64,000 nucleotides of DNA, taken from positions 300,853 through 364,852 of the forward strand of contig NW_014577112.1 of the NCBI RefSeq assembly GCF_000485595.1. The letters are read 5' to 3'. The position numbers were made by a program, and so were the translations under genes. Below, in pieces: positions 8,641-63,389 of the stretch. This DNA is from Priapulus caudatus. Taxonomy: Eukaryota; Priapulida; Priapulimorpha; Priapulimorphida; Priapulidae. Under the pieces are notes generated by a model. That model was not told the origin of the DNA and did not search any database. It saw only the letters and a program-made list of their open reading frames with translations. The number at the start of each line of letters is the position of its first letter. Within the stretch, counting starts at the first letter, position 1.

Positions 8641-8649
8641 CTGATGACC

Positions 8650-8716
8650 TCACATAGAGTGGATGTTGACCCGATGACCTCACACACACTGGATGTTGAC
8701 CCGATGACCTCACACA
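8650..8716. repeat. short remnant of the 30-bp TGGATGTTGACC minisatellite
   Basis: About two units of the sequence GTGGATGTTGACCCGATGAC are present. The same unit forms a nine-unit array at 31771-32042. Just after it begins the flank shared with copy C. Confidence 0.8.
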
Positions 8717-14011: not shown

Positions 14012-15020
14012 GGTGCCGTGTTCCCAGCCATGCACACAATTTGGTCGCATTGGGCAACGCAACGCTAGTAGAAGGAGTAAACTTGTGGGCTTCACTTATG
14101 CCGGTGAGTCTCTGATGGTGCCTTATCACAATACCTATACAATTTGCGCGACTTGTTTAGGACTGCCACGATGGTAGTATTTCTGATAAAAGTGTATAAT
14201 ATTGGTGGTGGTGGTGATGTTGTTGTTGATGTGGCGGTGGTGGCGGTGGTGGTGATGAATGTCGTGGTGGTGTAGTGGCGGTGTGTTGAGCGCGGTTGAG
14301 TTGATGCGGTGGTGCGTGGCGGTGAGATGATGTCGGTGTAGTAGCCGGTGTGCGGTGCGTGTATGATGTCGTGTAGTAGCGGGCGGGTGGTGGCGGTGGC
14401 TGGCGGTGATGATCGTCGTGTGGTGTAGTGGCGGTGGTGTGTATGGCGGTGGTGCGGCGGTGGCGGTGATGATGTCGCGTAGTGGCGTGGTGGCAGTGGT
14501 GGTGATGATGTCGATGTAGTGGCGGTGGTGGCAGTGGGTGGTGATGATGTCGTGTAGTGCGGTGGTGCAGTCGGTGGTGATGAATGTCGATGTCCGTGGT
14601 CGGTGGTGGCAGTGGTGTTGATGATGTCGGCGTAGTTGGTGTGTGTTGATGCGGCGGCTGTGAACGCTCATGTTTAATAAGGTTGCTAGGCGCTCTGCTA
14701 CCAGTTGCCAGATTGTAATTTCATGCAACCTGCGCTTGCTGCATACTGTGTGCACGGCTTTTGACGGAGGCTGCCGTCAGTGCTTCTACGTACTTGGTAG
14801 ATGTCCATAGCAACTATTAGTAGCCATTGTATTACAAATTCCGTTTTTACAAGAGTTTCCTGTAAGTTTTGTTTTGATGCATTGGAACTGTAAAAATAGC
14901 TGGCTATCCTCGTAAAATTCGCAATGGCGCTCGCCCTGGACGATTATATGTGTCGCGGCGCTCTTCTCTCTCTCTCTCTCTCACCCCTCTCTCTGTCTCA
15001 TCCGTCTCGTCTCTCTCTTT

Positions 15021-15061
<41 letters not shown>

Positions 15062-15111
15062 CGTCTCGTCCGTCCCCCTGCTCTCTCTGGCTCTCTCTCT
15101 CTCGTTCTCTC

Positions 15112-15176
<65 letters not shown>

Positions 15177-16761
15177 TCTCTCTCTCTCTCTCTCTCTTTC
15201 TCTTTCTCGCGTTCTTTCTCTCTGTTGCTCTCTCTCTCTCTTTCTTCTTCTTCTTCTTCTTCTTCTTCTTCTTCTCTCTCTCTCTCTCTCTCACTCACTC
15301 TCTCTCTCGCTCTCTCTCACTCTTTTTTCCCTTTTTTCACCTTCCCCTTTTTGTGTCTCGCTCTCTATGAATTAATTAATCAATTAATTATTTTATAACA
15401 ACCATATGGTTACAGTTATGAACACTGCAACAACTTGACTGCTTAATTATTACTGATAACTGATCGTAGTGTGATGATTGTTGTGCAGGGCTTTTTGGTG
15501 TGGTCTGGTGTGTAGTTTGGCTGCTCGTCGCAGCGGACACGCCTCACTCTAGTCGCTGGATCACCCACGATGAACGCCACTACATAGAACACAGCTTGGC
15601 CGGCCAGATGTCGTACGAAATCAAGGTAATAAAGAGCGATTGAGGAATATGCGATGAAATAACCGAGTTCGAGAATGACGATATAACTCCGATTTCGATC
15701 ATATAATAAGTACGCGATTGCGACTGCGAGTTTAAAACGTACCACGCGCAGTAGTAAGCAGAATTGTCAATATAAGATCTGTGTTAATTAAAGGATCGAA
15801 GCACTCCTTGGCTAACGATATGGACGTCAAAGAGAGTGTGGGCCATCGTTGTTGCTCACACCTGTGCGAACTGGGGCACCTACACATTGCTCACCAACAT
15901 CCCCACCTTCATGAAGGAAGTGCTCAAGTTTAACATCAAAGCCGTGAGTGTACTCGTAACTGTGTCCAAAATAGAACTCATACAATGTGTCGAGAATGGG
16001 CATGAAAATCGTTCCGTTGAATGTGGGATTGTTTAGTTGGGTTTTCTTGTTCGCAGAATGGCGCTTTCTCGGCCATCCCTTATATTGGTTTCTGGGTGGG
16101 AATCAACGCTGCTGGCTTTGGTGCGGACGCGTTGAGAGCGCGAGGCTGGAGCACAACAATTGTGCGAAAGCTATTCCATTCATCGTGTGAGTATGCAAAA
16201 CGCACAGCTTATTGGTCATCTGTAATCGGGACTTGATTATCGTCACAAAATGTTCAGAATTGTGGACCGATTAGTTGCCTTGACGTTAGAGAAATAGGTG
16301 CAACTGTTATAGACCTTTGCACACCTAATACCAACAAATTAGCAATCTTATATAAGTATTATTAGTAAACAAAGTATACAAAGTATTACTATAATAACAA
16401 TAACAACAACAGAAGATTATTACAAAACATTCGTTTAACCATTCGTGAATAATAAAGAGCCAGCATACTGTATACGCCATATTTTTCGCGTACAGATATT
16501 TTCGCTAATTCAGAATTCGCGAGTGGTTAATTTCGCGGTCGGTGAATTATGAATTATTCGGTATTATTCAGTATGAATTATTCGCGGGGACGCGTTCGCG
16601 AAATTCGCGAAAATTAAACCAAATATACCGAAATATACAGCTTATACAGTAACTTAGAGTAAAAATGTCTATATTAGGTACTAGCAGGACACCCGGCGTT
16701 GCCCGGGAAATAAAGCGCTCAGTTGGTGACCACTTGGTTGAAAGAGAAATACCCAAAAATA

Positions 16762-16799
<38 letters not shown>

Positions 16800-18337
16800 G
16801 CTAGCTAGCTAGCTAGTATATAGAGTGGCCGATATTGATTTGAATCGAGAACAGACGAACAGAGAAACTTTCACAAATATGTATTAGATATGTACCCCTA
16901 CACGTTTAACCCTACACGTTGCTAAGTTACGGCTACTGTCATCTAATCAAAATGTGTACCACAATATTTTATTTTACTTTTCGTCAGCTATGGTCTTGGC
17001 AAGTATATTCCCTGATAGTGACCGTCTACCTGATTGTACGCGGCCGTATTTGGCTGTGGCGATTCTCACCGTGGCTGTCACATTTTCTGCTCTTCAGTAT
17101 GGAGGTAAGTACACCTAAAACACAGTTCTACTATTTCCGAAGAGCTGTGTTATTAGGAAATGAAAGAAGAATGAAAGATTAGAGGACTACGAATAACAAA
17201 AAACGAGGAAAAACAATAAGAAAAAAAAACGAAGTAATGGTGGTATAGATGAAGTGGCAGTGGGGATGATTAGTAGCGTGAAGGATTATGTAGAAAAGCG
17301 TACTATGTAAGAACAACGAAATGGTAATGTATGCTGTTCTATTCTTATTCTTTTACATTTGTAGCATTGTTGCTTTATCTTCACAGGCTTCATTGTCAAT
17401 CATGTTGACATTGCCCCCAAGTACGCCGGAGTGTTGTTTGCATCTCGAACACGTTCGTACACTTTCTGAATCTTTGCTCCATACGTGGTCGGTCAAATCA
17501 CCACAGATGTAAGTTCCCTGAACATTGGTAACACGCGTGTTAGATCTACAACCTAAAGTAGGGCTTATTGTTACGCGTAAAACTATATGGCGCATTTTAA
17601 TCACGTTTGTATAACTAAAAATCTACTTTTTATTGCCACTGTTTTTTGATTCTTATCTTAATCAGTTTGCAATGTTTTATTGTACATATATTGTCTATTG
17701 TTATGTCTTATGTCTTTGTAATATTTACACAATATGTTTTAGTATTAACCCGGTAGTTAAATAGAACTTGGTCTGAAATATACAGACTGCAGTTGCTCAT
17801 TAGAGAACATGCAATGACTCGCATACGATAAGCCTCCGTCAGTTTCTCTCCGCGTTTGTTGCAAAATCCACTAGCCTATGTCATCCTCCACAGGGAACAC
17901 AGCAACAGTGGCAGACGGTGTTCTACATCACTGCCGCCATCATGGTAGGCGGCGCCATCTTCTACTTCATATTTGGCACAGGAGAGCTGCAAAGTTGGGC
18001 CACAGAGCTCGATGAAGCCGAGTCAATAGCTGACCTCGTCGACGAAGATAAGGCGAGATAGAACTCTTCACATTTTGGTTTTTAGTTGAGCACATACATG
18101 TGCGTGCTTGCCCACGTGTGTACTCGTTCGCATATAAGCAAGAGCACGTAAACTCTAGCTTTACGTAACAGTATGGGCGCTATAATAGTATATATTGAGA
18201 ATTATATCTAGAGGACAGCTTGAAACGTATGGTTGATGATCTCTTAAACAGCTACTTTACCTACTTGTAGTGGAACACAAAGAGATGACAAGGACAGCGA
18301 GCCTGCTGCTGAAAACACCGTTTCAACTAAGATGTAG
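14012..18337 (+). CDS. SLC17A5-like: SLC17 (sialin-like) transporter, copy B, lacks first three exons, frame-damaged
   Basis: Exons are about 14012-14103 (E4, GAVFPAMHTIWSHWA), 14705-14796 (E5), 15489-15625 (E6, [20 protein letters not shown]), 15794-15943 (E7), 16057-16186 (E8), 16988-17104 (E9), 17387-17508 (E10), 17894-18052 (E11) and 18270-18337 (E12). E6-E8 are clean and nearly identical to copy A. E4, E5, E9, E10 and E12 carry single-base gains or losses. E9 has one inserted and one lost base that compensate; E10 is 122 rather than 125 bases, with three separate one-base losses. Exons and introns from E9 onward resemble copy 2 rather than copy A, so copy B looks like a hybrid of the two. 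The damage fits sequence error better than pseudogene decay because introns show the same indels. E1-E3 would be expected near the 25-base gap at 12745, after which the sequence differs. Confidence 0.82.
14195..14660. repeat. GGT/GAT-rich minisatellite, copy B
   Basis: Same array as at the window start, between E4 and E5, with extra one-base gains and losses. The 206-codon minus-strand frame through it, rich in His, Thr and Pro, is compositional and not a gene. Confidence 0.85.
14961..15360. repeat. CT/CTT microsatellite, copy B
   Basis: Long interrupted (CT)n with an internal (CTT)n run, in the intron between E5 and E6. It creates long spurious Ser/Leu and Arg/Glu frames on both strands. 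Confidence 0.9.
16680..16886. mobile_element. short element present in copy B and absent from copy A
   Basis: About 200 bases interrupt otherwise aligned intron 8 sequence of copies A and B, between ATTAGGTA and TATGTACCCC. It contains GGACACCCGGCGTTGCCCGG and a tail of (ATCT)n then (AGCT)n. The CCCGGCGTTGCCCGGG core is GC-rich and palindromic. Flanks ATTAGGTA and TATTAGATA may be an imperfect target duplication. Confidence 0.65.
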
Positions 18338-19330
18338 CCAATGACGTTTTCACAGTATATATGCTCTCGTCAAACTCGCGTGTTATCAACGTTAAAACAT
18401 ATCTAGATTGGAACATAACATCATAATTTTTTTCCATACTCGTAGACGGGCAGAGACGAGAATATTGTCATCGCCCTACATCGTGCGAATAAATGCCAAC
18501 ACAGGCATCTGACACGTTTACATGAGTTTGTAGAATGATATCATATGCATGCATCTGTTCGGTGTATCCGTCGTAATGCGTTGTAAACATGTAAAACTAA
18601 AGTGTAGAGCTAAGTTTTGTTTCCGTGTTTGTTACTACCCTAAGAAAAGAAAGATAGAAACTATATGGTTCACAACCAGGCTATGAGGTTATAATAAAAA
18701 ACGCCATTCTCGGTGCAAGTGTGGTGGTAAAGATAAATAGACTCAAAGCAAAACTGGCTAATGCCGTTTTGGCGCGCACGTGGTCTGAGCAACACGGGAT
18801 GGCGTGATGTAGCCTCCATAGCATTCCTTGCCCCTCCAAGATTCGTATATAGACTCTAAAAATATGGCTGCATTAGTATGGGGGCGGGGTGAGCGTTTTT
18901 GTTTGATTGTTGCATTCTTGACAATTGGCAATCGGCGATTCCTGCGGTTATGTTATATATGCAAACTAAATGCCTTTAGTTTATAAATATGTTATTATGT
19001 GTTGGTTCAGCGACCAGCAAATGTGCTGGTGTTAATATTCTTGTATTACGGAAGTAAGGTGATACCTATAAAAGACGGACTGGTCAGTAATATTCGAGGG
19101 CAGTGGCAGTCTGACTGAATAAATAATGTAGAAAATGTTTCATAAAAGTCAGAAAATAAAGCTGTTTACTCGTGTTCTATGGTTTTTATGTTTGGTGACA
19201 AAGAATCGAATATTCATAGACAATGGTGAAAGCAGCCGTTTGTTCAGTCGTTTGCGATATCGATGTGCTGCGCTTTTAATCATTTTATGTAAAAAGGCGC
19301 AATATAAATAAAAATAATAATAATAATAAT
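18338..19330. repeat. SLC17 3' flank of copy B, repeated at 10564 and 30071
   Basis: Sequence after copy B matches the 3' flanks of copies 2 and C for about 1 kb, including GGCAGTCTGACTGAA, with small indels. It contains no coding exon. Confidence 0.7.
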
Positions 19331-19574
19331 AAATGTATAACAGTCATAGACAGAATTCGGGAAGATTTGCCAATGTAGCAGGCGGCCAGATATGCGTGCT
19401 GGGCATACGCTCTCCCAGCTGGATCGCGGGCTATCATGATCGCGACTTTCCTTATTGTTATCTTCCCCAGAACGAAGTTCGTGGGGATACTATGTGTTTG
19501 CATCGTTCGCGCCGACCGCCGCCGCCGCCGCCGCAGAGATTTCTTGTGAACGCTCTACCGGCTGCAGTTCTTCT

Positions 19575-20088
19575 CGGATCATCTTCAAATTTCGCATGAA
19601 GGTGCGTTACCGTAAAGCGAATACGGCTATCGTTTTTGGTGTGGGCGGAGTCATCGTTGTCATGGTAACAACATTTTTTGTCCGAAATATCTAGAACCTG
19701 TAACTTCTGCACTTTTTAACCCGCATTGTCATGAAATTTATATTTAAATTATATTTAAATTTAAATTTAAAAATTTAAAAATAAAAAATTTTAATTTAAT
19801 ATTTGTATTAAAAAATTTGTATTTAAATTTATATTTAAATTTATGATTGTCATCAAATATATATATCTATATACATATATGTATATAAATATATAGGACA
19901 TGTTATATCGGCCCTGAGTGTGCCAAATTCCATGACAATCGTGATAAAACAGCACAAGTTACAGTTCTACCAATTTTCCACAAAAATGTTGTTACCATGG
20001 CAACGATAACTCCGCCCACACCAAAAACTATTGCGCGTCTTCGCTTTACCATAACACGCACCTTCATACCAAATTTGAAGATGATCCG
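19575..20088. mobile_element. long inverted-repeat element with arms over 100 bp
   Basis: The left arm (19575 to about 19690) reads CGGATCATCTTCAAATTT and includes TTTTTGGTGTGGGCGGAGT. The right arm (about 19970-20088) is its imperfect reverse complement, ending AAATTTGAAGATGATCCG. The centre is AT-rich TATTTAAATT repeats. No transposase frame is present, so it would be non-autonomous. The equivalent clean block at 5721 contains only the outer right-hand word. Confidence 0.75.
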
Positions 20089-21620
20089 AGATCGGGTAAA
20101 AACTGCCCACCAGGTCAGGTCACTGCGACTTTTATTTCACCTTTACCTTGAGCCTTGATCCATATTCATATATAATCTCGGCCCCTAATTGACCTAGTGT
20201 GACAAACTTGGTCTTCACTTACACATCTTGGGGAGAAGGTGGCAAGCCGTACCAAAACCAGGTCACTGCGACCTTTATTTTGACCTTTACCTTGACCTTG
20301 ATCATATTTCCTTTTCGCTCTCTAACTCAGCCCCTAATTGACCTCAGCGCGCACCAAACCTTGCGGTATGCTTAGCACATCATTGGGAGAAGGTTCTGTC
20401 CCGCTACGCAAAACCACCACTGCCCTTGAACCTTACGATTTAAGACATTTCACCGTCGACTATCATTGTCCTCTTCGCCTTGCTAGGGTAACCAGATTCC
20501 AGTGTTATACTTGCACATCTTGAGGGCACACCGCTGTCTAGGCAAACTTGTGGTCTTTGCGACCTTAGTGTATAAACTTTACCTGCCCTTCTATTCGTCC
20601 TTACATATCCATATTTATACTACGATCACGGGAATACAGTGTAGTTGGCCGACGAACTGCGCTCGTTTCTAGTTTTTCTTAAATCTCTATCTTGAACTTT
20701 ATTTTTATCATATATTGTTGTAATGGGGTTCGCAGGTCAGCTTATTGCCGGCAAATATATCTGCCGAATTTATATATAAATTGTCGATCTCACAATAATG
20801 GGCCACACGCTCGTTCGTTGTACCTTTCGACGAAAAAGCGCATGTATTTATACCTCGTCATTCTTCACTGTCGAATGTCCGGCGATATGCAGGCTCGAGG
20901 ATGTGTAAATATATAGGCTCGCAGGTCCTAAAGGTGCTCATCACGCTGCATGCACGAAGCGCGCTGTCGGTGAAGGTGTGGAGCGAAGGTAATGCTTGCA
21001 ATATATACACTGTTGTTCGACGGGAGGGAGCGTGATTCTTTTTGCAATTGTACCAAACGTTGGGTGAAGCATCGTCGTCTTCTCTCGAAAACAAATCACG
21101 GAAACATCCTCCGTGGTGTTTGTGTATATCATGCAGCAGTTGGAGTTAGATTGTTCCATGCACGCGTTCCTGCCATTTCTGCTGCTACTCCTGCCACAAA
21201 TACGGGAGGTCACTATCGTGTGAGCTCGAACGTGTGGTCGCGAACGACGGCAACTATCCGGTAAAGCGAAGCCAGAAACAATCGAAGGCAAACATTTTAA
21301 CGAGTGGTTAGTTGAATTATCGAGACTGTGAGCTTCACGTATACATCGAAAACGTACATGCGCGCAGTGGCGGCATTAAATCCAGCATGATAGAGAAGAA
21401 TAGACAGACATAACGCAGAAACCGTTGTGCTTTGGCTGTAGTTAGCCCTTTTGCGCATACGGGTCCTCGTGGCAGGCGAACTGTGTGCAACTCCTACTAG
21501 ATACTTTTTACTGTTATCGCCAGAGCACATAGTACGTAGGGAAGCGCACCGCTCGGCGCGCGGCTGTCTCTCTATTTCAGTGAAGGTGCAAGCGAAAGAC
21601 TCAACGCGTACAAGAGGTGC
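20089..21620. repeat. error-rich copy of 5721-7060 (repeat block and SLC17 5' flank)
   Basis: It aligns along its length with 5735-7060 but with frequent one-base insertions, several per 50 bases in places. It leads into SLC17 E1 of copy C. Confidence 0.75.
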
Positions 21621-21938
21621 ATAGGCGGCCAGTATATATATTATAATATAGAGAGTGGTGTGTGTGTGTCTTAAGAGAGAAGAGGGCAGAGCATGAGTGA
21701 AGAAATTAGAGTGGTAGAAGAGAGCAGAGAGAGAGAGAGAGAGAGAGAGAAAGTTAAAGAGAGAAAGAGATAGAGAGAGCGGGAGAGAGAGAGAGACAGT
21801 CAGAAAGACAGAGAGGCAGACAGAGGCAAGACGCGCGAGTGACGGAAGACGTAGCGCACAGCCGGGACAGATTGCTGATTATATACGTACGGCGCTCGGA
21901 CGTGAGGACAAGAACGGGTCTGGATATAAACGGTGGAC

Positions 21939-24900
21939 ATGGAATCGTCATCTGCTCGCTCCTCACGAGGCAAGACGTCTGCGATCATACACAGTCCGCG
22001 CTCCGTCATAGACGCCGAGGGAAATGTCAGCTACTGTAAGTATATGCACTTACTTAGCTCTAGAACTATAACCCTTCTCTCTGTCACAGCCTGTCAGCCT
22101 GTGGCAGAGCGAAGGGCTATAGTTCTAGAGCTAACACTCACTGTGGTGGTGAACGGGAAGGTCAATACACTGCTCTGATTAATCACGATTACGGCGAAGG
22201 TCACAGTTAGAGTGAGGTTCGGGTTAGCTCTAGAACTATATAGCCCTTCGCTCTGCCATAGGCGACAGGTCTGTGGCAGAGCGATATTAAGCGCTATAGT
22301 TCTAGAGCTAGGTTCGGGTAAGCCCGACGAGGCTGTGCGACTGATTGTCTATACAAGGGTCTTCTAACCCTAGCAAGACCGTTTCTTGGAGCTAAGTTCG
22401 GGTATGGTCAGAACTATAGTTACCTAACCTCAACGCGTAATTCTAACCCAAGCCAAACAATAACCACTTAACCATGATCACAGATCTAGCTTGAACCCTT
22501 CTCTAGCTCCACCTTGACCATAACTATATATGACCTTGGCGCGTAATGAAAACCTTATGAGGGATGGGGATGTATAAAAGTATATGAGAGAAAGGAGAGA
22601 GCTTTATTGCAGTTACCGGGCGATGTGATAAAGATAGGCGACAAAAAGAACGCTTGCGTCACTTATTTTTCATATATGATTAGGAAGGCAGTTATTCTAT
22701 TCTATTCTAGTATATTGTAATATATTATATTATATTATATTGTAAGATATTATATTATATTTTATTGTAATATATTATATTTTATTTTATTATATTATAT
22801 TATATTATATTCCATATTCTATTCTAGTCTAGTCTATATACTAATCTATGATGTACTATACTCTTCCGTTGTATGCAGTTCTATTGTCAATTATACCGTG
22901 GATAATAGTGTGTAGGCCTACTCTCTGTGGCAAGATTTCCTTTGGTTTAAAAATATGCCCCGCGAATGGCCATGACGTCAATGGCGATCAACAGGAAGTT
23001 CGTGGAATAGAATTTTGACCCTGCTCACGAGGCCACGAACAGGCACTCGATGGCTGTGTGTGTGTGTGTGTGTGTGTGTGTCGTGTCGCGTGTGGCGGGT
23101 GACGTGCGCGTGCACGTGCGTGCGCGTGCGCGTGTGTGTCTGTGTATGTGTGTGTACGTGCGTCTGCGCGCTCACATGCACTCTCCATGCACCCTCCGAC
23201 CCGCGTAGAAGAGTAACGACACTATTATATATGTTTTTTGCCGCCAAAAGTATTCAACTGTTAAAACACACACAGTTACTTTGTTTCTAGCGTGTGCGGT
23301 TACGGGGCAACAAAAAAGAAATAGAAAACGCAAGCGTTGTTATAAGCAGAGAACGTTACATAACTCACTCAAATTAGAATAAATTGGCTATATATAAATT
23401 TTTATTAATAATGATATAGTAATAAAAAATCTAATTAGCAACAATATCTGTAAATAAATTTTAGAATATTTTTAATTAAATATTATTAACATATGGTATA
23501 AATAATAGTTTGATATCAGTATATCATTATAATAATAATAATAAATTGCTCATACATAAATATTTGAATAAGGAGTGAGGGGCAAATCGATAAATTGAGA
23601 TGAAGAGGAGAAAATAATTAAGGTACGATGTTGTCTCTCTTCTCTCACCTTCTCCTTAATGCCTGATTTTTTCCCAACTAATTCCATCTCTCTCTTTCTA
23701 ATATCTGTTATCTCTATATTCGCCCGCAGATCCTCTCTGGGGTTCTCAGCGCATGATCCTCGCAGTCATCGTTTTCTTCGGATTTGTCACCGCTGTATGC
23801 TCTGCGCATCAACCTCAGCGGTTGCTCTCGTCTGCATGGTGTAACTACACGGCCATCGACATGGCCTCACAAAATGGAATACGTCGGACTTCCATACGTC
23901 AGGCAGCTGACGTTGACAAGTGCGCAAGTGGAGGAACAGAAGACAAAGAGACTCGAGGTCATGCGCGTTCCACATGAACATTCCGTTTGTCCCGCTAATA
24001 TATGTATGTAGGTGTGTGGAGAGAAAGCGCTATGTAACCATAGGCGCACGCAGTGGTATGACGAAATCACATGACGATTTCCAGAATTTATATAGAGATA
24101 AGATTTGTCGATTGCGCTAATATATATTGGTAACATGCGTTTTCATCTCACCTAGGATGGGCCCGTTCCTGTGGGAACAAGCACACATAGGCTTTGGATT
24201 CTGGGTTCGTTCTTCTGGGGCTATACCTGGTGACGCCAGATTCCGGCGGCTGGATTCTTGAGCGCTAACGGAGGAAAGCGAAGTGTTCGGTTACGCCATG
24301 CTACTGAACGGCCATTGCGACGTTGCTCACAACCTCTCGTGGCCCGTAAGGCAATTGGAATGTGCTGGTATTCCTGCGCATCGTGCAAGGTCTGGGTGTA
24401 GGCTGCGGCCAATGTAGTCTGCCGTACGCATGCCGTTTCATGCGGACAGAATAGGACGTGTATAATTATCGATAATTAAGAGTTTAGTTTAATTACATAG
24501 GGAGTTGAAAATAAATAAAACCGTTTTATATCACATCCATAACTTATAATAATATAAAATACATAATTATTTATTATGATATGTAACTATTTTTATTCAC
24601 TCCTAATTATAATAATATAAAATACATAATTATTTATTATGATATGTAACTATGAATCATAAAGGAAATTGTGAATAATAATAGCACTGTAAAGACGCAT
24701 GTGTTAGGCCTACATATGGCGTCGTTCTGTTGCTAGGGTGCCGTGTTCGCCAGCCATGCACAACAATTTGGGTCGCGATTGGGCACCACCGGCTAGAGAG
24801 GAGTAAACTTGCTGGGCTTCACTTATTGCCGGTGAGCTCTCTGATGGTGCCTTATCACAATACCTTATACAATTTTGGGCGACTTGTTTTCAGGACTGGC

Positions 24901-26305
24901 GCCAACGATGGTAGTATTTCCTGATATAAAAGTGTAATAATATTGGTGTGCTGTGGTGATGTTGTTGTTGATTGGTGCGTGGGCGGTGTGTGATGATGTC
25001 GGTGGTGGTGGTAGTGGTAGTGGCGTGGTGTTGATGGCGGCGGTGATGTTGATGGCGCGGTGGCGGTGGTGGCGGTGGTGGCGGTGTGGCGGTGGCGGTG
25101 ATGATGTCGGTGTAGTAGCGTGGTGGCGGTGGGCGGTGAGATGTCGGTGTACGTAAGCGCGTGTGCAGTGGCGGTGATGATGTCGGTGTAGTAGCGTGGT
25201 GGCGTGGCGGTGATGATGTCGTGTAGTAAGGCGGTGGTGGTCGGTGGCGTGATGATGTCGGTGTGAGTAGCGGTGGCGGTGTGTGGCGGTGGTGGTGATG
25301 ATGTCGGTGGTGGTGGTAGTGGCGGTGGTGTTGATGGCGGCGGTGATGTTGATGGCGGGCGGTGGGCGGTGGTGGCGGTGTGGCGGTGGTGGCGGTTGCG
25401 GTGATGATGTCGTGTAAGTAGCGTGGTGGCAAGTGGCGGCTGATGAATGTCGGTGTAGTAGGGGGTGGTGGCGGTGGTGGCAGTGGGTGATGATGTCGGT
25501 GTAGTAGCGGTGGGGCCGGTGGCGGCTGATGATGTCTGGTGTAGGTAGCGGTGGCGGTGGTGGCGGTGGTGCGGGATGATGTCGGTGGTGTGGTATGTGG
25601 CGGTGGTGTTGATAGGCGGTGGTGGCGGCGGTGGCGGTGATGATGTCGGCGTAGTGGGCGTGGTGGCAGTGGTGGTGATGATGTCGATGTAGTGGCGGTG
25701 AGTGGCAGTGGTGGTGATGATTGTGGTGTAGTGGCGGTGTGGCAGTGTGGTGATGAGTCGATGTAGTGCGGTGGTGGCAGTGGTGTGATGATGTCGGTGT
25801 AGTGCGGTGGTGGAGGGTGTTTGATGAATGTCGGTAGTGGTGTGGGGTTGCAAATGCGCGGTGGTGACGCTCAGTGTTAATAAAGGTTGCTGGCGGCTTG
25901 CGTTACAGGTTTGCAGATTGGTAATGGTCATCACCCTGCCGCTTGCTGCATTACTGTGTGAGCTACGGTTCTTTGACGGAGGCTGGCTTCGATCTTCTAG
26001 CGTACTTGGTAGATGTTCCTAGCACTATAGTAGATCATATTTTATAAAAATTCCGTGTTTTACAGAGTTCCTGTAGTTGTTTTGAATGCATGGAACTGTA
26101 AAATAGGCTGGCTACCTCGTAAAAGCGCATGGCGCATCGCTGCCTGGACGATTATATGTGTGCGCGCGCTCTCTGGCGCGTCTCTCTCTCTCATCTCTCT
26201 CTCTCGTCTCATCTCTCTCTCTCTCTCTTCTCTCTCTCTCTGCTCTCTCTCCTCTTTTTTCTCTCTCTCTCCTCTCGTCTCCGTCATCTCTCTCTTCTCT
26301 CTCTC

Positions 26306-26338
<33 letters not shown>

Positions 26339-29300
26339 GTCTCTTTCTCTCTCTCTCCGTCATCTCTCTCTCTCTTCTCTCTCTCCCCTCTTCTCGCTCG
26401 CTCTCGTTCTCTCTCATCTCCTCTCTTCTCCTCTTCGGCTCTCTCTCTCTCTCCTCTCCTCCCTTTTCTTTCCTTGNNNNNNNNNNNNNNNNNNNNNNNN
26501 NNNNNNNNNNNNNNNNNNNNNNNNNNNNNNNNNNNNNNNNNNNNNNNNNNNNNNNNNNNNNNNNNNNNNNNNNNNNNNNNNNNNNNNNNNNNNNNNNNNN
26601 NNNNNNNNNNNNNNNNNNNNNNNNNNNNNNNNNNNNNNNNNNNNNNNNNNNNNNNNNNNNNNNNNNNNNNNNNNNNNNNNNNNNNNNNNNNNNNNNNNNN
26701 NNNNNNNNNNNNNNNNNNNNNNNNNNNNNNNNNNNNNNNNNNNNNNNNNNNNNNNNNNNNNNNNNNNNNNNNNNNNNNNNNNNNNNNNNNNNNNNNNNNN
26801 NNNNNNNNNNNNNNNNNNNNNNNNNNNNNNNNNNNNNNNNNNNNNNNNNNNNNNNNNNNNNNNNNNNNNNNNNNNNNNNNNNNNNNNNNNNNNNNNNNNN
26901 NNNNNNNNNNNNNNNNNNNNNNNNNNNNNNNNNNNNNNNNNNNNNNNNNNNNNNNNNNNNNNNNNNNNNNNNNNNNNNNNNNNNNNNNNNNNNNNNNNNN
27001 NNNNNNNNNNNNNNNNNNNNNNNNNNNNNNNNNNNNNNNNNNNNNNNNNNNNNNNNNNNNNNNNNNNNNNNNNNNNNNNNNNNNNNNNNNNNNNNNNNNN
27101 NNNNNNNNNNNNNNNNNNNNNNNNNNNNNNNNNNNNNNNNNNNNNNNNNNNNNNNNNNNNNNNNNNNNNNNNNNNNNNNNNNNNNNNNNNNNNNNNNNNN
27201 NNNNNNNNNNNNNNNNNNNNNNNNNNNNNNNNNNNNNNNNNNNNNNNNNNNNNNNNNNNNNNNNNNNNNNNNNNNNNNNNNNNNNNNNNNNNNNNNNNNT
27301 AGGGGGTATCTCAGAAAGATTTATGTAATAAATTCTTCGTTAGTAGACCTACGTTTATTATTAGCAGAGCGCCCTAGCCTGTAGAGTTAAAAACTCCTAC
27401 TTTACTCTTCCGTCTTATCCCTTGCGCTCCCCTTGTCGCTCGCCCTTAGCCTCCTCTTCTTTCTACCGCCCTCAGCTATCTTGCCTGCCGCCTATCCGCA
27501 GTCTCCACCCTCTGCATCCTCCAGGAAGCCTATAATTAATTGCAGTTTTCGTCAGTCCATAACTGCACGCCGAAAACCGGCTCGCGCATGCGCAAATAAC
27601 TTTCGAGAAAAATATTATTTTTGCAACTATTCTGGCATTTAAAATGAAGAGGAGTCTATTCTAGCATAGATTATGAAAACATTCTAGCAAGTAGAACCTC
27701 ACTTTAAAATAGGAAGACGACCTTGCAATGTAAAAACCCCGCTGCGTATACCAGTGCAATACCACAATCTGGCTATACGTTAGTAAGGCTAGCGGTCATG
27801 CGCAAATATCTCACCAGAGAGTTATATTTTGATGATAGTATTTAATATTCTCAAGGGGTATCTCAGCATCAGATTTGTGTAATAAATTCTTATCAGTAGA
27901 CGTGCATTTACGAATTAGGCAACGAGTGCGCCTAGCATGTAGGGTGCAAAACTCCTACTTTTACCCATCCCGTCTTATGCCCTGGCCTCCTCCAGCGCTC
28001 TCTTAGCCCCCCTCTTCTTCTAACCGCCCTCAGCTACTTCGCCTGCTCGCCTATCTTCTCAGTCTCACCCCTCTCATACTACATTAAATCTAGAATTATC
28101 GTAAATATTAATATAATCCATACTTATAAATCTATAAATCTAAAATTATGCAGCTTTTGTCAGTCCATACAGCTCGTTCTGAGTTGCCAAGGCGTCATGG
28201 TGGGGCAGGGCCGTAGCCTGTGTGGGTGGGGGGGGGGGGTAAAAGAGCAGCTGGCCCCTTAAGATTTTGGAGCAAAATAAAAAAATAATCTAACTAATAC
28301 ATTAAATAATCATAACGGATTTTTTGGTCACATATCCGTGAAAGCCTTGGCTAGACGCCACCCTACCCATGGGAATTTGCTTCCAGGGCCTACGACCTTG
28401 GTGGCATATTCCCTCTTCTTTTCCCCGCTAGACACGGTCCGTGCGGAAAGTAATGATATTTTTAGGGCGCATGGTCATTCGAAAATTTATGTTAAGCAAA
28501 CCCTTCGCAAATTTCAAAATCCATGTCTAAATACATGAGTAACCCCATTAGCAATGACATAAACTAGTGGAAAGTCGTTTTTTTGCTAATTAGCTACGTG
28601 CGTTTTGCTTCATTCGAATTTTCCTAGTGCCGTGTCCATTTGATAATAAGCAATATAACTTATATATGGGAATTTTAAAATCATTACTTTTTGTCCAGCT
28701 ATGGTCGCGGCAAGTCTAAATCCTGATACGTGAGCGTGCTACCTGGATGTGTACCGGCCGTATTTGCTGTGGGCGATTCTCACCGTGGCTGTCACTTTTC
28801 TGCTCTTCAGTATGGAGGTAAGTACGACCTAAAAACACAGTTTACTATTTCCGAAAGAGCTGTGTTATTAGAAATGGAAGAAGAATGAAAATATTAGAGA
28901 CTACGAATTAACAAAAAACGAGGACAAGACACAAGAAAAAAAAACGAAGTTAATGGTGGATAGATGAGAGTGGCAGTGGGTGAATTAGTAGGCGTGAAGA
29001 ATTATGTAGGAAAGCGTAACTATGTAGAGAACGAAATGGTAATGTATGATGTTCTATTCTTACTCTTTACATCTGTAGACATTGTTGCTTTTATCTCACA
29101 GGCTTCATTGTCAATCCATGTTGACATTGCCCCACAAGTAAACGCCGGAGTGTTGTTTGGCATCTCGAACACGTTCCGCTACACTTCTGGAATCTTTGCT
29201 CCATACGTGGTCGGTCAAAATCACCACAGATGTAGTTCCCTGAACATTGGTAAACGCGTTGTTAGAATCTTACAACCATAAAGTAGGTTTATTGTTACGT

Positions 29301-31770: not shown

Positions 31771-32042
31771 AAGTGGATGTTGACCCGATGACCTCACACA
31801 CACTGGATGTTGACCCGATGACCTCACACAGAGTGGATGTTGACCCGATGACCTCACACACAGTGGATGTTGACCTGATGACCTCACACAAAGCGAATGT
31901 TGACCCGATGACCTCACACAAAGTGGATGTTGACCTGATGACCTCACACAGAGTGGATGTTGAGCCGATGACCTCACATAGAGTGGATGTTGACCCGATG
32001 ACCTCACACATAGTGGATGTTGACCTGATGACCTCTGTTGAC
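31771..32042. repeat. 30-bp minisatellite, nine units, downstream of CRAMP1
   Basis: Unit AGTGGATGTTGACCCGATGA plus CCTCACACAC repeats at an almost exact 30-base period. The period is a multiple of three, so both strands show long repeated frames; these are not genes. It ends about 84 bases beyond the CRAMP1 stop codon and may lie in its 3' untranslated region. Confidence 0.9.
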
Positions 32043-41100: not shown

Positions 41101-44100
41101 TCACCAGCAAGAGATATGTAAGCGCACAACAGTTACTCACACGCACAGACAAGAGCTAGGGATGCATGGAAAACATGTCTTATGGATTTTTACAAACAAC
41201 AGTCACGAACATGTACAAACAAGAGTATGACAAGTTGTATGAACGTACAATAACAACAGTTACGGACAAGTACAAGCAAGAGTTATGGGCCTGCGATAAC
41301 AAAAGTTATGGATGCGATAACAACAGATATGGACGTGTGCAAACAAGAGATAGCTACGCACGATAACAGAAGCTACGATACGATTGCTTCTAATGGAACC
41401 AAGCCCTCGTGGTGCGATTCTCACAAAACGGAACGCTCAGCTTCCATGGCGTCATCACGCAGACCCGGCTTATACATATACACACATTTTTCAGTCGTAA
41501 ATTTGTAAATACCGTCGATGTTGTTGAGTTTCTTCAGAGCGCGACAGAGCGGCGTCTTTATCCGTATGTTCTTCGCACCGTTCTTTCCCTTCACTTTCAT
41601 GCGAACCGTCGTCACGCTAAGGAACAAGAACGCCGGCTTAAGATGAGAGTCGGTCGCACACACAGCCACACATCAAAAGTCATCGTGTGGAAAGACATAG
41701 CATGAAGTGATAATACAGATACGATACATTTCGTAGATTTGTCTTCGCTTCACTGTTTTGCTGCCGGCAATGTCAATAGCTTACATATGCACTGCAACAA
41801 TCTTATCCATGTTTGTGGGAATAGAATGCAATACTTACCCTTTGTTAATAAGATCCTGCAATTTCTGTGCATTCTTCTCTGTAAGCCCTGAACAAGAATT
41901 AAAATTGCGATGCCATCAAACATAACTATAAATAATGATTACGCATCACAACAGTCACTTGTTCTTAAGAATATAAAACATGGATGTAATCGCAATTTTG
42001 CACATCCAGTACATTTTTTACGTGCAAGCAATCTTCTTTGTCCTCCTCCTCAGTCTACTCTCCATCCCTCCATATCCTCCTTTATCTCTGCCATTCTTCC
42101 TCTCCTTCTCCCTCAAAGGGAGTAAAGTCATACTTACTGCCTCCCACCTTTCTACGCAACACTCCGTAGTTGATCAGTGCATACAACTCCTGCGTCTGCT
42201 TCTTTATGTCTAACAAAACAACAAAGAAATCATAGTCAGGGAGCAGCAAATAGAATTCCAAAAAATCCATAAAGAATCAGAAAAAGATTCAGAATCATTG
42301 GCTATAGCAAGCAAACTCACCATCTCCAAAGTCTAGATGCTTGGATATCTTATGCCATTCCCTATAGTAGAACCCCCGCACTTGGTCCTTGTCCTTTGGA
42401 GGGACGGGTGGATCACCGCCACGCTTCTTGTGTTTTGACGCTATGTAGTTCTGAATAGCGTCAAAATCTTTGCCGTGCTGCAGAGGAAACGACTGCACTT
42501 TTACCAGCCTGTGGTGGGCCTAACTATGAATGCTGCCATGTGATATTCCCTCTCATATCAGATATGCCCCTGCTAGTGCTAATAATGTCTACATTTTGCA
42601 CGATGCTAGACGTGGATCAATTACCCAGGGAAAAATTATAGTTAGCTTGGCACTGACTACACCATGTGTGATATATTGTTACATTACATAACTATTCACA
42701 ATGCATCTTAGCAGTGTTTTAACGTCGTGGTAACAACGTCGTTGTTATTAATTGAAACTACGTACACTGTATGCGTATGCATTCTGCTACAATATTGACT
42801 GGTATTGCGTACCTCATACAAAGCCTCGAAGAATGTGTTCTTATCATCCGAGGTCCATAGTTCCCAGGATCGTCTTGCTTTAACCTCTGGTGTTCCAGTT
42901 GGTACCGGCTGAGAACTAGTCTTAGCTACATAAGCAAAAAAAACGTGTGTAAACATTATTTACGATCTTCATTGTACAGACTATATATATAGTGCTACCT
43001 CGATAAATCACACTCAGAAGTATAATCACAAATAAATGCAGAATTACACGGCAACTTCGAGTAGGAAGAAATATGCCATGTATCTAGCTTTTCGCTGCTC
43101 ACTGGTGCTTTCCAATAGCTACCTAGTGCAGATGCAGAGGTAGTATGTGTTATATTGCACCAAAAACACAATATATGTGCACACCGAAAATAAACATATA
43201 AAGACAGAACACCCACACAAACATACACTTCAGCTCAGAATACATCCAAGAAAGCCTGAGTCACAAAAACCGAGTTAACCACACATGCTAATCCTGTTAC
43301 ATGGTGACATTAACAAGAAGACTTAAACTCAAAAGAAATACACAACTAATGACTGAGCAAAACCAAAACTCGAATCACGCGCGGTAGCGTCGGGAATTGA
43401 CGAAGAATATAGCAAATGTAAAAGCTTATATGCACTATTCACATCATTAGTTATCACACTGTGTCATTACATTCACAATTATCATGCGTCCATCTAATAA
43501 AACCCAACAAATGTGGTTACTGGATTTTTTGGCGGGTGGTGCCGATGGGGGCGTCGAATCCCGTTTTCGTCTTGCCGTTCTTCCACTTGATCGGATGGAC
43601 AAAGTGACGGGTGGTGGTGATGTCTCAATAGGCAGCTTGCTCCCCACCTGCTTTGACCGAGTATCATGGCTGTGAGGATTGTTTCCTCCTTCTGCATTGA
43701 TCATTGTTGCTACTGACACAGGAGCAAGTTCTACGAGCTTCCCCATGGATGTGGCTTCCTCTTCACAACTGCAACAGAGATTTGAGGAATTTAGAATTTA
43801 TACTAGAAAATATGGCATGTTTATTAACGGCTGGGAGCACAGGATTGGTCGATTGTGTCCACGGTAGTAGCGATGGTTCAAGGATAGAGAACATGGGTCC
43901 CAATAAAACCAATGTCATTTACATCAATATAAATATAATATTATATCAATATAATAGGTTAGGGTTATGGTTAGGGTTAGGGTTAGGGTTAGGCACATTG
44001 ATTTTATTGGGACCCATGCTCTCTATCCTTGGGCCGTAGCGATTTCGATCAGTAACATTTTGTCACTAGCCCTCTGCCTCGTCTGTGTTTATGAAATGAG

Positions 44101-61042: not shown

Positions 61043-63389
61043 ATGAGTTACGATAGAGCACCGCCAGATATTCATGGCATGGTTTCACTGAAGGTCGATA
61101 ACTTGACGTACAGAACAAGTCCCGAAGATTTGCGGCGGTCATTTGGCAAATATGGCGAAATTGGTGACATTTATATTCCCCGGGACCGGTTCACGCGCGA
61201 AAGCCGAGGCTTCGCTTTTATCAGGTTTATTTTCGAAGTTATAGTGAATCTAAGTATTTCATATTATATATGCATTATTGTAATCCCATACGTTAAAGTT
61301 GCGTATATGTTATCGCGTATTTGCCTTTGTTTAAGTAATTACTAATACTAATAGTAATACTAATACTAATAGTAATACTAATACTAATACTAATAGTGGT
61401 TCAAGGATAGAGAACATGGGTCCCAATATAACCAATGTCATTTACATCAATATAAATATAATATTCTATCAATATAATAGATTAGGGTTAGGGTTAGGGT
61501 TAGGGTTAGGGTTTAAGGCACATTGGTTTTATTGGGACCCATGTTCTCTATCCTTTGGCCCTAATAGTAATACTAATACTATTACTATTATTAGTAATAG
61601 TAAGGCAGTGGCTACGGGTACGGTAGCCGTATCTTAATGTCTCGAGGCTACGGGTACGGGAGTCCATTCGCTTTCATACTTAACGAGACAAAGATGGCGG
61701 CGGTGGCGCCAGATTTCGAAATAACGTCTTGGGAAATAAATTCACGATTCGAGAGTTTAGATGAACTAGAACCCTAACCCTAACCCTAAATCTTACCTTA
61801 ACCATAACCCTAAACCTAACCCTAATCCTAACCCTAACCCTAACCCTAACCCTAACGCCAAAAAGGGGCTTCAACGACCGACGGCTACAGGGTTCTCCCC
61901 AGGATGAAATTCAAACAGGGGGGAGGGAAGGGGGAGGGGGGGAAACAGGGGGGCGTGTTTTTTACCGTACCACTAATTAATGCGTAAAATCGCCACCACA
62001 CCATAGACGGTATTTGGGGTTCTTGTATATATAAGATAGCCGAGTCGGTGTACAGTTAGTGTTAGGTGTGGGACAGGTTGACTTTTTGTACTTGTGTATT
62101 GTCTGCAGTGCATGCGTGGTACTGTGAAAATACACGCGCCGGGTGTCCTAGTCGAATTGTACTTCTTGACGATCGATTCCCGCGCTGGCAAACTTTTATT
62201 GTGGTGGAATTTAATCGGGGCGGAGGTAATTTAAACGGGGCGCAACGATTGAAACGGGGGAGTTTTCCCGAACGGGGCGTATTACTAATACTATATTACT
62301 AGTAATAGTAATACTATGTATGTTTGAACACCGCATAGTCGCATGTCACTGTCATTGTAATGGGTGTCACGTGCTAGAGACGAGCTAGTAAGAGTCCAGC
62401 CCATTTAACCAGTGCCATACTATGCTATTAAATGGTATATGGGCTCGCCTATGGGTGTCTCGGCTAACATCCATGATAGTTTTACCTGTTCCATGGGCTT
62501 TCATTGTGTTGTGCAAATTTTCATGCAAAATTGGCTAGACTGAAAATTGACTCGATGACAATGACTGAAAAATTGACCAGAAATTTTTGTGCAGTTTATA
62601 TTAAGTTATCCGTTTTCTATTGTTTGTTTCTGTCCTTGTCTCATAGTTCGGTCAAGATTTTAGTAAACTTAAATTTTGAGTAAATGCAACTTTGTAGCAA
62701 CTTAGCAAGTGTGTCAAAAGATTATAAGGTTGCCTGATAGACATTCTTACTACGTCGGAAAGATTGAAAAAAATGTTAGGTACAAACTAGGAAATAAACA
62801 TCTATATCATTTGCATAACATGTAAAATTTAATCTCAGGTTCTACGATAAACGGGATGCAGAAGATGCAATGGATGCGATGGATGGACGATCATTAGATG
62901 GCAGGGACTTGAGAGTAGCGATGGCACGCTATGGTCGACCAGATGAGAACCGATCGCGCCACCGGGGCGGTGGAGGCAGGCGTGGCAGTTCACCAAGACG
63001 AAGGTGAGTTGATTTAATAATCTGTATCGGCGAAGCTAATGTAATTGAATTCTATTTTCATGATAACGTCTGTATTCCTACGCGCACGCATCCTAATTAC
63101 TCCCCATACTCCGCCCCCGACAGTAGCGTCGATGGCAGCATTGTGCTCCTCGTTTGCTGCCATTGTCGCGCTTCTCTCTTGCAGGTCGTATTCTCGTTCT
63201 CGCTCGCGATCCCGCTCGCGGTCCCGATCACGCTCTCGCTCGCGATCAAAGTCGGCGAAGAGAGAGCGCCGTAGATCGACGAGGAGCCGCAGCAAGTCGA
63301 CGAGCAAGTCGCCGCGAAAGGTCAAGACGCCGAGCAAGTCGAGGTCGCGGTCTCGTTCCAAGTCTCGATCGAGGGAGAAGTCGACTTAG
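61043..63389 (+). CDS. SRSF2: SRSF2-type SR splicing factor, complete, three exons
   Basis: Exons 61043-61224, 62839-63003 and 63185-63389 give 183 residues (human SRSF2 221). An N-terminal RRM covers about 14-92, with RNP2 LKVDNL (16-21) and RNP1 RGFAFIRF (55-62), the latter split by intron 1. A Gly/Arg linker ([14 protein letters not shown]) leads to a C-terminal RS domain of Arg-Ser and Lys-Ser dipeptides ending SREKST. SR proteins bind exonic enhancers through the RRM and recruit spliceosome components through the phosphorylated RS domain in the nucleus. The [15 protein letters not shown] start and the short RRM-only plus RS layout fit SRSF2 rather than SRSF1 or SRSF3. An AG at about 61003 upstream of the ATG could be the acceptor of a 5' untranslated exon. 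Intron 1 is filled with repeats. Confidence 0.93.
61398..61560. mobile_element. telomere-repeat-bearing MITE, copy 2, SRSF2 intron 1
   Basis: A 163-bp element with the same inverted termini as 43875 and exact CTAATAGT flanks (61390-61397 and 61561-61568). The interior has five TTAGGG-type units. It inserted into a TACTAA simple repeat. Confidence 0.92.
61694..61777 (+). other. 27-codon frame at an AAAGATGGCGGCGG site, ending in telomeric repeat
   Basis: ATG in an AAAGATGGCGGC context is followed by [19 protein letters not shown] and then ESLDELEP. The stop codon is supplied by the first CCCTAA units of the adjacent tract. Protein-like composition, but no homologue recognised; may be chance. 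Confidence 0.25.
61768..61856. repeat. interstitial telomeric tract (CCCTAA)n
   Basis: About fourteen CCCTAA units with variants (CCATAA, CCTAAA). Orientation is opposite to the TTAGGG units inside the nearby MITE, and no inverted termini surround it. Confidence 0.9.

Follow-up and report, generated by a model that had tools for sequence, protein, structure and literature searches.

The 64,000-nucleotide stretch of Priapulus caudatus DNA analysed here (the window) raises the question of how short arrays of TTAGGG, the ancestral animal telomere motif, came to lie within it. Where telomeric repeats lie inside chromosomes, they are commonly attributed to past chromosome fusion or to the repair of breaks. 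In the window TTAGGGTTAGGG occurs 11 times against a mean of 0.01 after shuffling, five of the 11 lying within a CCCTAA array at 61770-61856. That TTAGGG is the telomere repeat of this species is an assumption, since only one array of at least 20 units was found (on contig C1451); no terminal TTAGGG array was identified in the assembly.

Two repeat-bearing elements in the window

Two arrays of the window belong to a pair of miniature elements (MITEs) of one family, named family A in this work, and a third to an unrelated MITE (f2) beside the second element. The features are the following, in window coordinates.

43867..43874, no strand: left 8-bp target-site duplication of element 1, GTAGCGAT, read from the sequence
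43875..44035, plus strand: family-A MITE element 1, 161 bp, read from the sequence
43875..43915, plus strand: left terminal inverted repeat (TIR) of element 1, about 41 bp, starting GGTTCAAGG
43916..43956, plus strand: AT-rich internal stretch of element 1, found again in most other copies
43957..43993, plus strand: TTAGGG array of element 1, including one variant unit TTATGG
43995..44035, minus strand: right TIR of element 1, minus-strand start GGCCCAAGG
44036..44043, no strand: right 8-bp duplication of element 1, GTAGCGAT
61390..61397, no strand: left 8-bp duplication of element 2, CTAATAGT, within a TACTAA microsatellite and weak alone
61398..61560, plus strand: family-A MITE element 2, 163 bp
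61482..61513, plus strand: TTAGGG array of element 2
61561..61568, no strand: right 8-bp duplication of element 2, CTAATAGT
61604..61888, minus strand: truncated f2 MITE with end GGCAGTGGCTACGGGTACGG, unrelated to family A and carrying the repeat
61770..61856, minus strand: telomere-type array of f2, CCCTAA on the plus strand

An earlier interpretation made without database searches (the sequence-only reading) had described two elements of 161 and 163 bp with inverted ends of about 41 bp, each flanked by an exact 8-bp duplication of its own and holding four to five TTAGGG units between an AT-rich stretch and the right end. All of this was confirmed: GTAGCGAT flanks element 1 and CTAATAGT flanks element 2, and the exact units number four and five, respectively. 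The inverted arms measure 46 nt at 87% identity in element 1, a few flanking bases included, and 36 nt at 97% in element 2; a pairwise alignment of the two elements shows 7 substitutions and one 2-bp indel between them. The duplication of element 2 is weak on its own because CTAATAGT recurs in the adjoining microsatellite (three times in the 77 bases to its left), and the case for an 8-bp duplication rests on the family-wide count given below. The account of the two arrays therefore stands, and what it missed is that other MITE families also carry the repeat, the f2 array being situated about 200 bp from element 2.

Elsewhere in the window, two separate arrays of nearly the same 30-bp tandem unit, TGGATGTTGACCC..GATGACCTCACACA, are found at 8643-8716 and 31772-32035. 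Long imperfect GGT/GGCGGTGGT and CT arrays occupy 14203-26469 and are followed by an assembly gap at 26477-27299.

Family A across the genome

The sequence-only reading had proposed searching the whole assembly with the terminus. The family-A ends are GGYYCAAGGATAGAGA, and a 26-nt core of the inverted end was used, with up to two mismatches, on 385,217,808 bases in 2952 contigs; it matched at 673 sites and its reversed control at none. Copies were considered two-ended when their ends lay less than 700 bp apart, and 71 distinct copies of this kind were extracted, 137-292 bp in length with a median of 182. Twenty-nine were from a whole-element search with a query that included the array (L001-L030), and 42 from L031-L100, where all but L100 were at sites on the end-only list, for which the array was no criterion. 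Single-ended sites (L070, L079, L089, L092, L095 and others) and end pairs more than 700 bp apart (L061, L062) were excluded. Outside the array, over about 125 bp, the median distance to the consensus was one substitution in 67 copies, a sample in which young copies are over-represented, the loci having been selected for close similarity. By the same choice, old or array-less family-A copies may be under-sampled. Short, bounded by TIRs and present in many similar copies (71 two-ended copies, 673 end sites), family A has the properties of a MITE. Searches of public viral and genome contig collections gave no matches to the element.

The array is a constant component of these copies. At least one exact TTAGGG is present in all 71, with a range of 1 to 11 exact units, and no copy without TTAGGG, which the sequence-only reading would have taken as a sign that the repeats are incidental, was found in this close-match sample. 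Family A thus has one internal array site across loci in 71 of 71 copies. Both borders were read by script in 60, where the array follows the AT-rich block and precedes the right end, and in the remaining 11 a border motif differs. A pattern for the right-hand array junction matched at 279 genome sites (reversed control 0). The variant unit TTATGG is found in 53 of the 71 copies and TTAGAA in 30. As different loci share mutated units, the array was inherited with the element, in agreement with the claim that it travels with a transposable element. The sequence of the copies shows that transposition has spread the array together with its element; the evidence for mobility is structural, since no transposase or autonomous element with family-A ends was found in the loci examined.

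Target-site duplications were tabulated by length, as the sequence-only reading had suggested, and at the nominal ends of the 71 copies 8 bp was the sole length to stand out, as is consistent with a MITE and with the claim of 8-bp duplications. An exact 8-bp duplication is present in 22 copies and one with a single mismatch in 9 more; at lengths of 4-7 and 9-12 no exact duplication was found. The first bases agree in 47 of 71 copies at length 8 versus 15-24 at other lengths. When the ends were allowed to shift by up to three bases, the longest exact duplication was of 8 bp in 16 copies, 9 in 4, 11 in 2 and 5 to 7 in 16, and no exact duplication of at least 5 bp was present in 33. Tandemly duplicated right ends, placed 78 bp beyond the first, explain part of the missing duplications. 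Nine of the copies have GTTAGGGC or ATTAGGGT as their flank because the second tandem right end comes next, which lowers the duplication count; in L017 the 8-mer just outside the outer right end, ATAAATCT, is identical to that flanking the left end.

Four family-A copies are nested in elements of another family (f3), and excising the element plus one 8-mer bettered the f3 alignment in three of the four (L072, L068 and L028 in favour of the empty-site model, L005 against). This is a partial test, as exact 8-mers flank the element on both sides in L072 and L005 alone.

Some structural variants were also noted. A subfamily has the right end tandemly duplicated, 78 bp apart (L017, L033, L053, L074 and others), and a variant with a different interior (L031, L066, L090) retains a degenerate array. 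In L070 a lone 38-bp end (626-663) lies between exact 8-bp duplications (TGAACTCC), and was probably left behind by an imperfect excision or by gap repair.

As to superfamily, the sequence-only reading called the ends hAT-like and held that Merlin fits less well. The ends of hAT elements are of the CAG type, and the second and seventh bases of their duplications are T and A, respectively. Family A shares an 8-bp duplication with them, but its ends begin 5'-GG, and among 31 duplications the second base is T in 12 and the seventh is A in one. The hAT label was rejected on these grounds, and it is improbable that these are hAT MITEs. TIRs of 24-462 bp, a conserved terminal GG and duplications of 8-9 bp are assigned to Merlin in PMC8101967, and family A, with its GG, TIRs of about 41 bp and 8-bp duplications, suits Merlin at least as well. 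Judged by its ends, Merlin would be the best fit.

A Merlin transposase with family-A ends was not found. The Merlin transposase domain PF12762 (IS1595-type) has 11 matches in the genome, and no family-A end was detected in flanks of up to 1.5 kb around any of the 11 (longest exact match 11 bases). The autonomous element with the same ends, for which the sequence-only reading had advised looking, was absent from the loci examined, which comprise the 100 end sites listed among the 673. An outer end joined to an altered inner end was found once, in the known copy L010, which has a small deletion. Two candidates for autonomous elements, L061 (2.8 kb) and L062 (2.5 kb), both TIR-bracketed, were rejected, as they hold long inserts inside a MITE; that of L062 splits the internal block itself, and by eye no transposase was recognised in the open reading frames of either. 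The Merlin-type (IS1595) transposase domains of L101-L111 are in several cases in open frames, and their own ends were not found.

Other repeat-bearing MITE families

Wherever the surroundings were recognisable, arrays of the collected loci not belonging to family A lay within other elements. These are, with duplications read by eye, f2 (end GGCAGTGG; 8-bp duplications in L080 and L092), f3 (end GCACGAAGGGTCGTTGTCG; 9-bp duplications in L017 and L084) and f4 (end GCTCATAGGGTCTATGTCCCC; duplications in L021 and L085). The families f5 and f6 have ends related to GGTGCAAATCCACTTTA and arrays on both arms. Families A, f2, f3 and f4 have one internal array each, and both array flanks differ between families.

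Junction patterns were composed of one TTAGG or TTAGGG plus family-specific sequence, with one or two mismatches allowed. For the right-hand junction they matched at 1927 sites for f4, 523 for f3 and 333 for f5 (up to two per element), with no match for any reversed control; the patterns need one unit only, so these counts refer to borders and not to full arrays.

A second sample was taken from perfect arrays. The sequence (TTAGGG)4 has 3916 matches in the genome (reversed control 1). Among the matches listed, the first 100 rows were grouped by eye and gave 42 places. Of these the first 22, on contigs C1 to C4, were taken; one coincides with the f4 element L031, and the remaining 21 fall in 20 sampled regions. 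By BLAST and reading, partly by eye, 17 of the 20 regions lie in MITE-type elements of eight families. Family A accounts for none of the 20. The most frequent is f4, in eight regions (L114, L115, L116, L120, L122, L125, L132, L133); f3 is present in L124, f5 in L121, f2 in L127 and an f3/f4 chimera in L126. Assigned by eye are f8 in L129, with two arrays, f10 in L130, f11 in L131 and f9 in L118 and, through its right part, in L128. In L117 and L123 the array is at the 3' side of tRNA-like SINE sequence (by eye), and L119 adjoins an assembly gap.

In 12 of the 20 regions versus 65 of 342 controls the array is enclosed by inverted arms, and arms together with an exact duplication of at least 8 bp near the outer ends are present in 8 of 20 versus 1 of 342; ends were movable by up to 14 bases, and the controls paired the flanks of different loci, with L119 omitted. 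Array flanks are repeated elsewhere in the collected loci in 16 of 20 regions versus 22 of 199 random 80-mers of the window, where some matches include residual TTAGGG and the collected loci are a non-random sample of the genome.

An insert of about 85 bp (CCGACCAGGCTCTCC...) is located inside the TTAGGG arrays of two different MITE families (L084, L086), and related sequences are found in L030, L063, L072 and L089. This insert is possibly an element preferring TTAGGG arrays.

Apparent chimeras and the origin of the arrays

Family A is very probably a young, high-copy MITE family whose ancestral copy already bore the array, which was spread by transposition and subsequently modified by slippage or exchange. 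In the ancestral MITE a TTAGGG array would have separated the AT-rich block from the right end. Acting in trans on the 41-bp ends, a transposase would move the whole unit, leave 8-bp duplications and in this way spread the array, whose length may later have been altered by slippage or unequal exchange.

For the presence of the repeat in several families, apparent chimeras joined at the array are of interest. L126 has f3 ends and an exact 9-bp duplication, TAAAGTGGG, with f4-like blocks (by eye) on both sides of the array, and its left flank matches 13 other loci; with such ends and duplication the chimera itself seems to have transposed. L022 is composed of a family-A left half, the array and an f12 right half that is also found in L040 and L002, and no matching duplication was seen. 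A 12-nt block, TTTTTGCATCAT, lies beside the array in f5, in L128 and at the second array of L129 (by eye, with no chance baseline), and in L128 and L129 an f5-type right border, again by eye, is present in other elements. In the junction table, 24 of 149 arrays have neither side recognised, and among those with both sides recognised 64 of 65 have the same family on both; the single mixed array, L086, is an insert inside an array. L022, L126, L128 and L129 were not scored as mixed because at least one side matches no signature of the table. Exchange at arrays is supported by few cases.

It is possible, with some doubt, that the array was captured once and then passed to other families by template switching or gene conversion. 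L126 and L022, which unite parts of two families at the array, and the recurrence of TTTTTGCATCAT point to such transfer. Against it, A, f2, f3 and f4 differ on both sides of the array, which is unexpected unless the array alone moved, and the arrays with both sides recognised are unmixed in all but one case.

Internally deleted elements commonly arise when repair that follows excision is aborted. If telomerase extended excision breaks repeatedly, internally deleted MITEs with the array at the junction would arise in separate families, an explanation we hold only tentatively. It agrees with the single internal array of families A, f2, f3 and f4 and with the telomeric repeats inserted at breaks that are described for human and primate interstitial arrays in PMC6410037; on the other hand, no parent element was found that marks the array as a deletion junction, and the arrays on both arms of f5 and f6 require extra steps. 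The short primate arrays resemble the present ones and differ in being separate insertions, where here the arrays are copied by transposons, and according to the same paper interstitial telomeric blocks in heterochromatin may have originated through transposition by mobile elements. By analogy, primate-type insertion at repaired breaks would be a likely route for first capture. Penelope-like elements associated with telomeres, as presented in PMC4522978, are likewise mobile elements linked to TTAGGG, but they are retroelements of subtelomeric regions that bear the repeat at the 3' end, whereas the present arrays lie inside dispersed DNA MITEs.

On the reading we prefer, TTAGGG entered MITEs, was spread by transposition and at times lends homology to exchange. 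Excision breaks could have been filled with telomere-type repeats through telomerase or a telomeric template, giving the first capture, and arrays in many families could then have offered a common homologous stretch at which templates are switched while gaps are repaired. In a bolder version, most interstitial TTAGGG arrays of this genome would form a network of unrelated MITE families in which the array is both healing patch and swap hinge, a proposal which we advance as conceivable rather than probable.

Tandem repeats in MITEs are not in themselves new. Insect MITEs with hitch-hiking (GTCY)n microsatellites were reportedly described by Coates in 2011. In PMC6947457 such insect elements are similar in that a microsatellite is carried by MITEs, and differ in the motif. 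The Xstir and miDNA4 elements of Xenopus, in PMC12628747, are also short and non-autonomous with an internal tandem array of varying length, and its reference list includes Donax trunculus MITEs carrying a satellite or tandem repeat. In distinction to Xstir, miDNA4 and the Donax elements, the present unit is the 6-bp telomere motif, it is carried by several families of one genome, and there are a few apparent chimeras. These precedents, and the differences in array length among copies predicted by slippage, are compatible with microsatellite hitch-hiking, by which a TTAGG-like stretch in each MITE grew by slippage, its identity with the telomere motif is coincidental and telomere biology plays no part. 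This is rather unlikely, as one hexamer is found in several families with unrelated ends, and the same 6-mer expanding independently so often needs a common cause. Less likely still is a functional array selected in several families, for example by binding a telomere-repeat protein that aids replication, chromatin or transposition, since despite the recurrence across families and the lack of array-less copies among the 71, the range of 1 to 11 exact units and the many variant units leave no tight constraint visible.

In the titles and abstract openings of the open full-text literature, a field outside which subscription papers and transposon-database reports mostly fall, we recognised no description of TTAGGG-carrying MITEs. 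Relative to the known MITEs with other tandem repeats, what differs is the telomere motif across several families. With about 3,000 array junction sites in transposon families, such repeats are not usable as marks of chromosome fusion in a genome of this kind. The many-family pattern and the apparent chimeras make it testable how MITEs originate and change by aborted repair after excision. If the array does act as patch and hinge, telomere-type repeats would help to make and reshuffle non-autonomous transposons.
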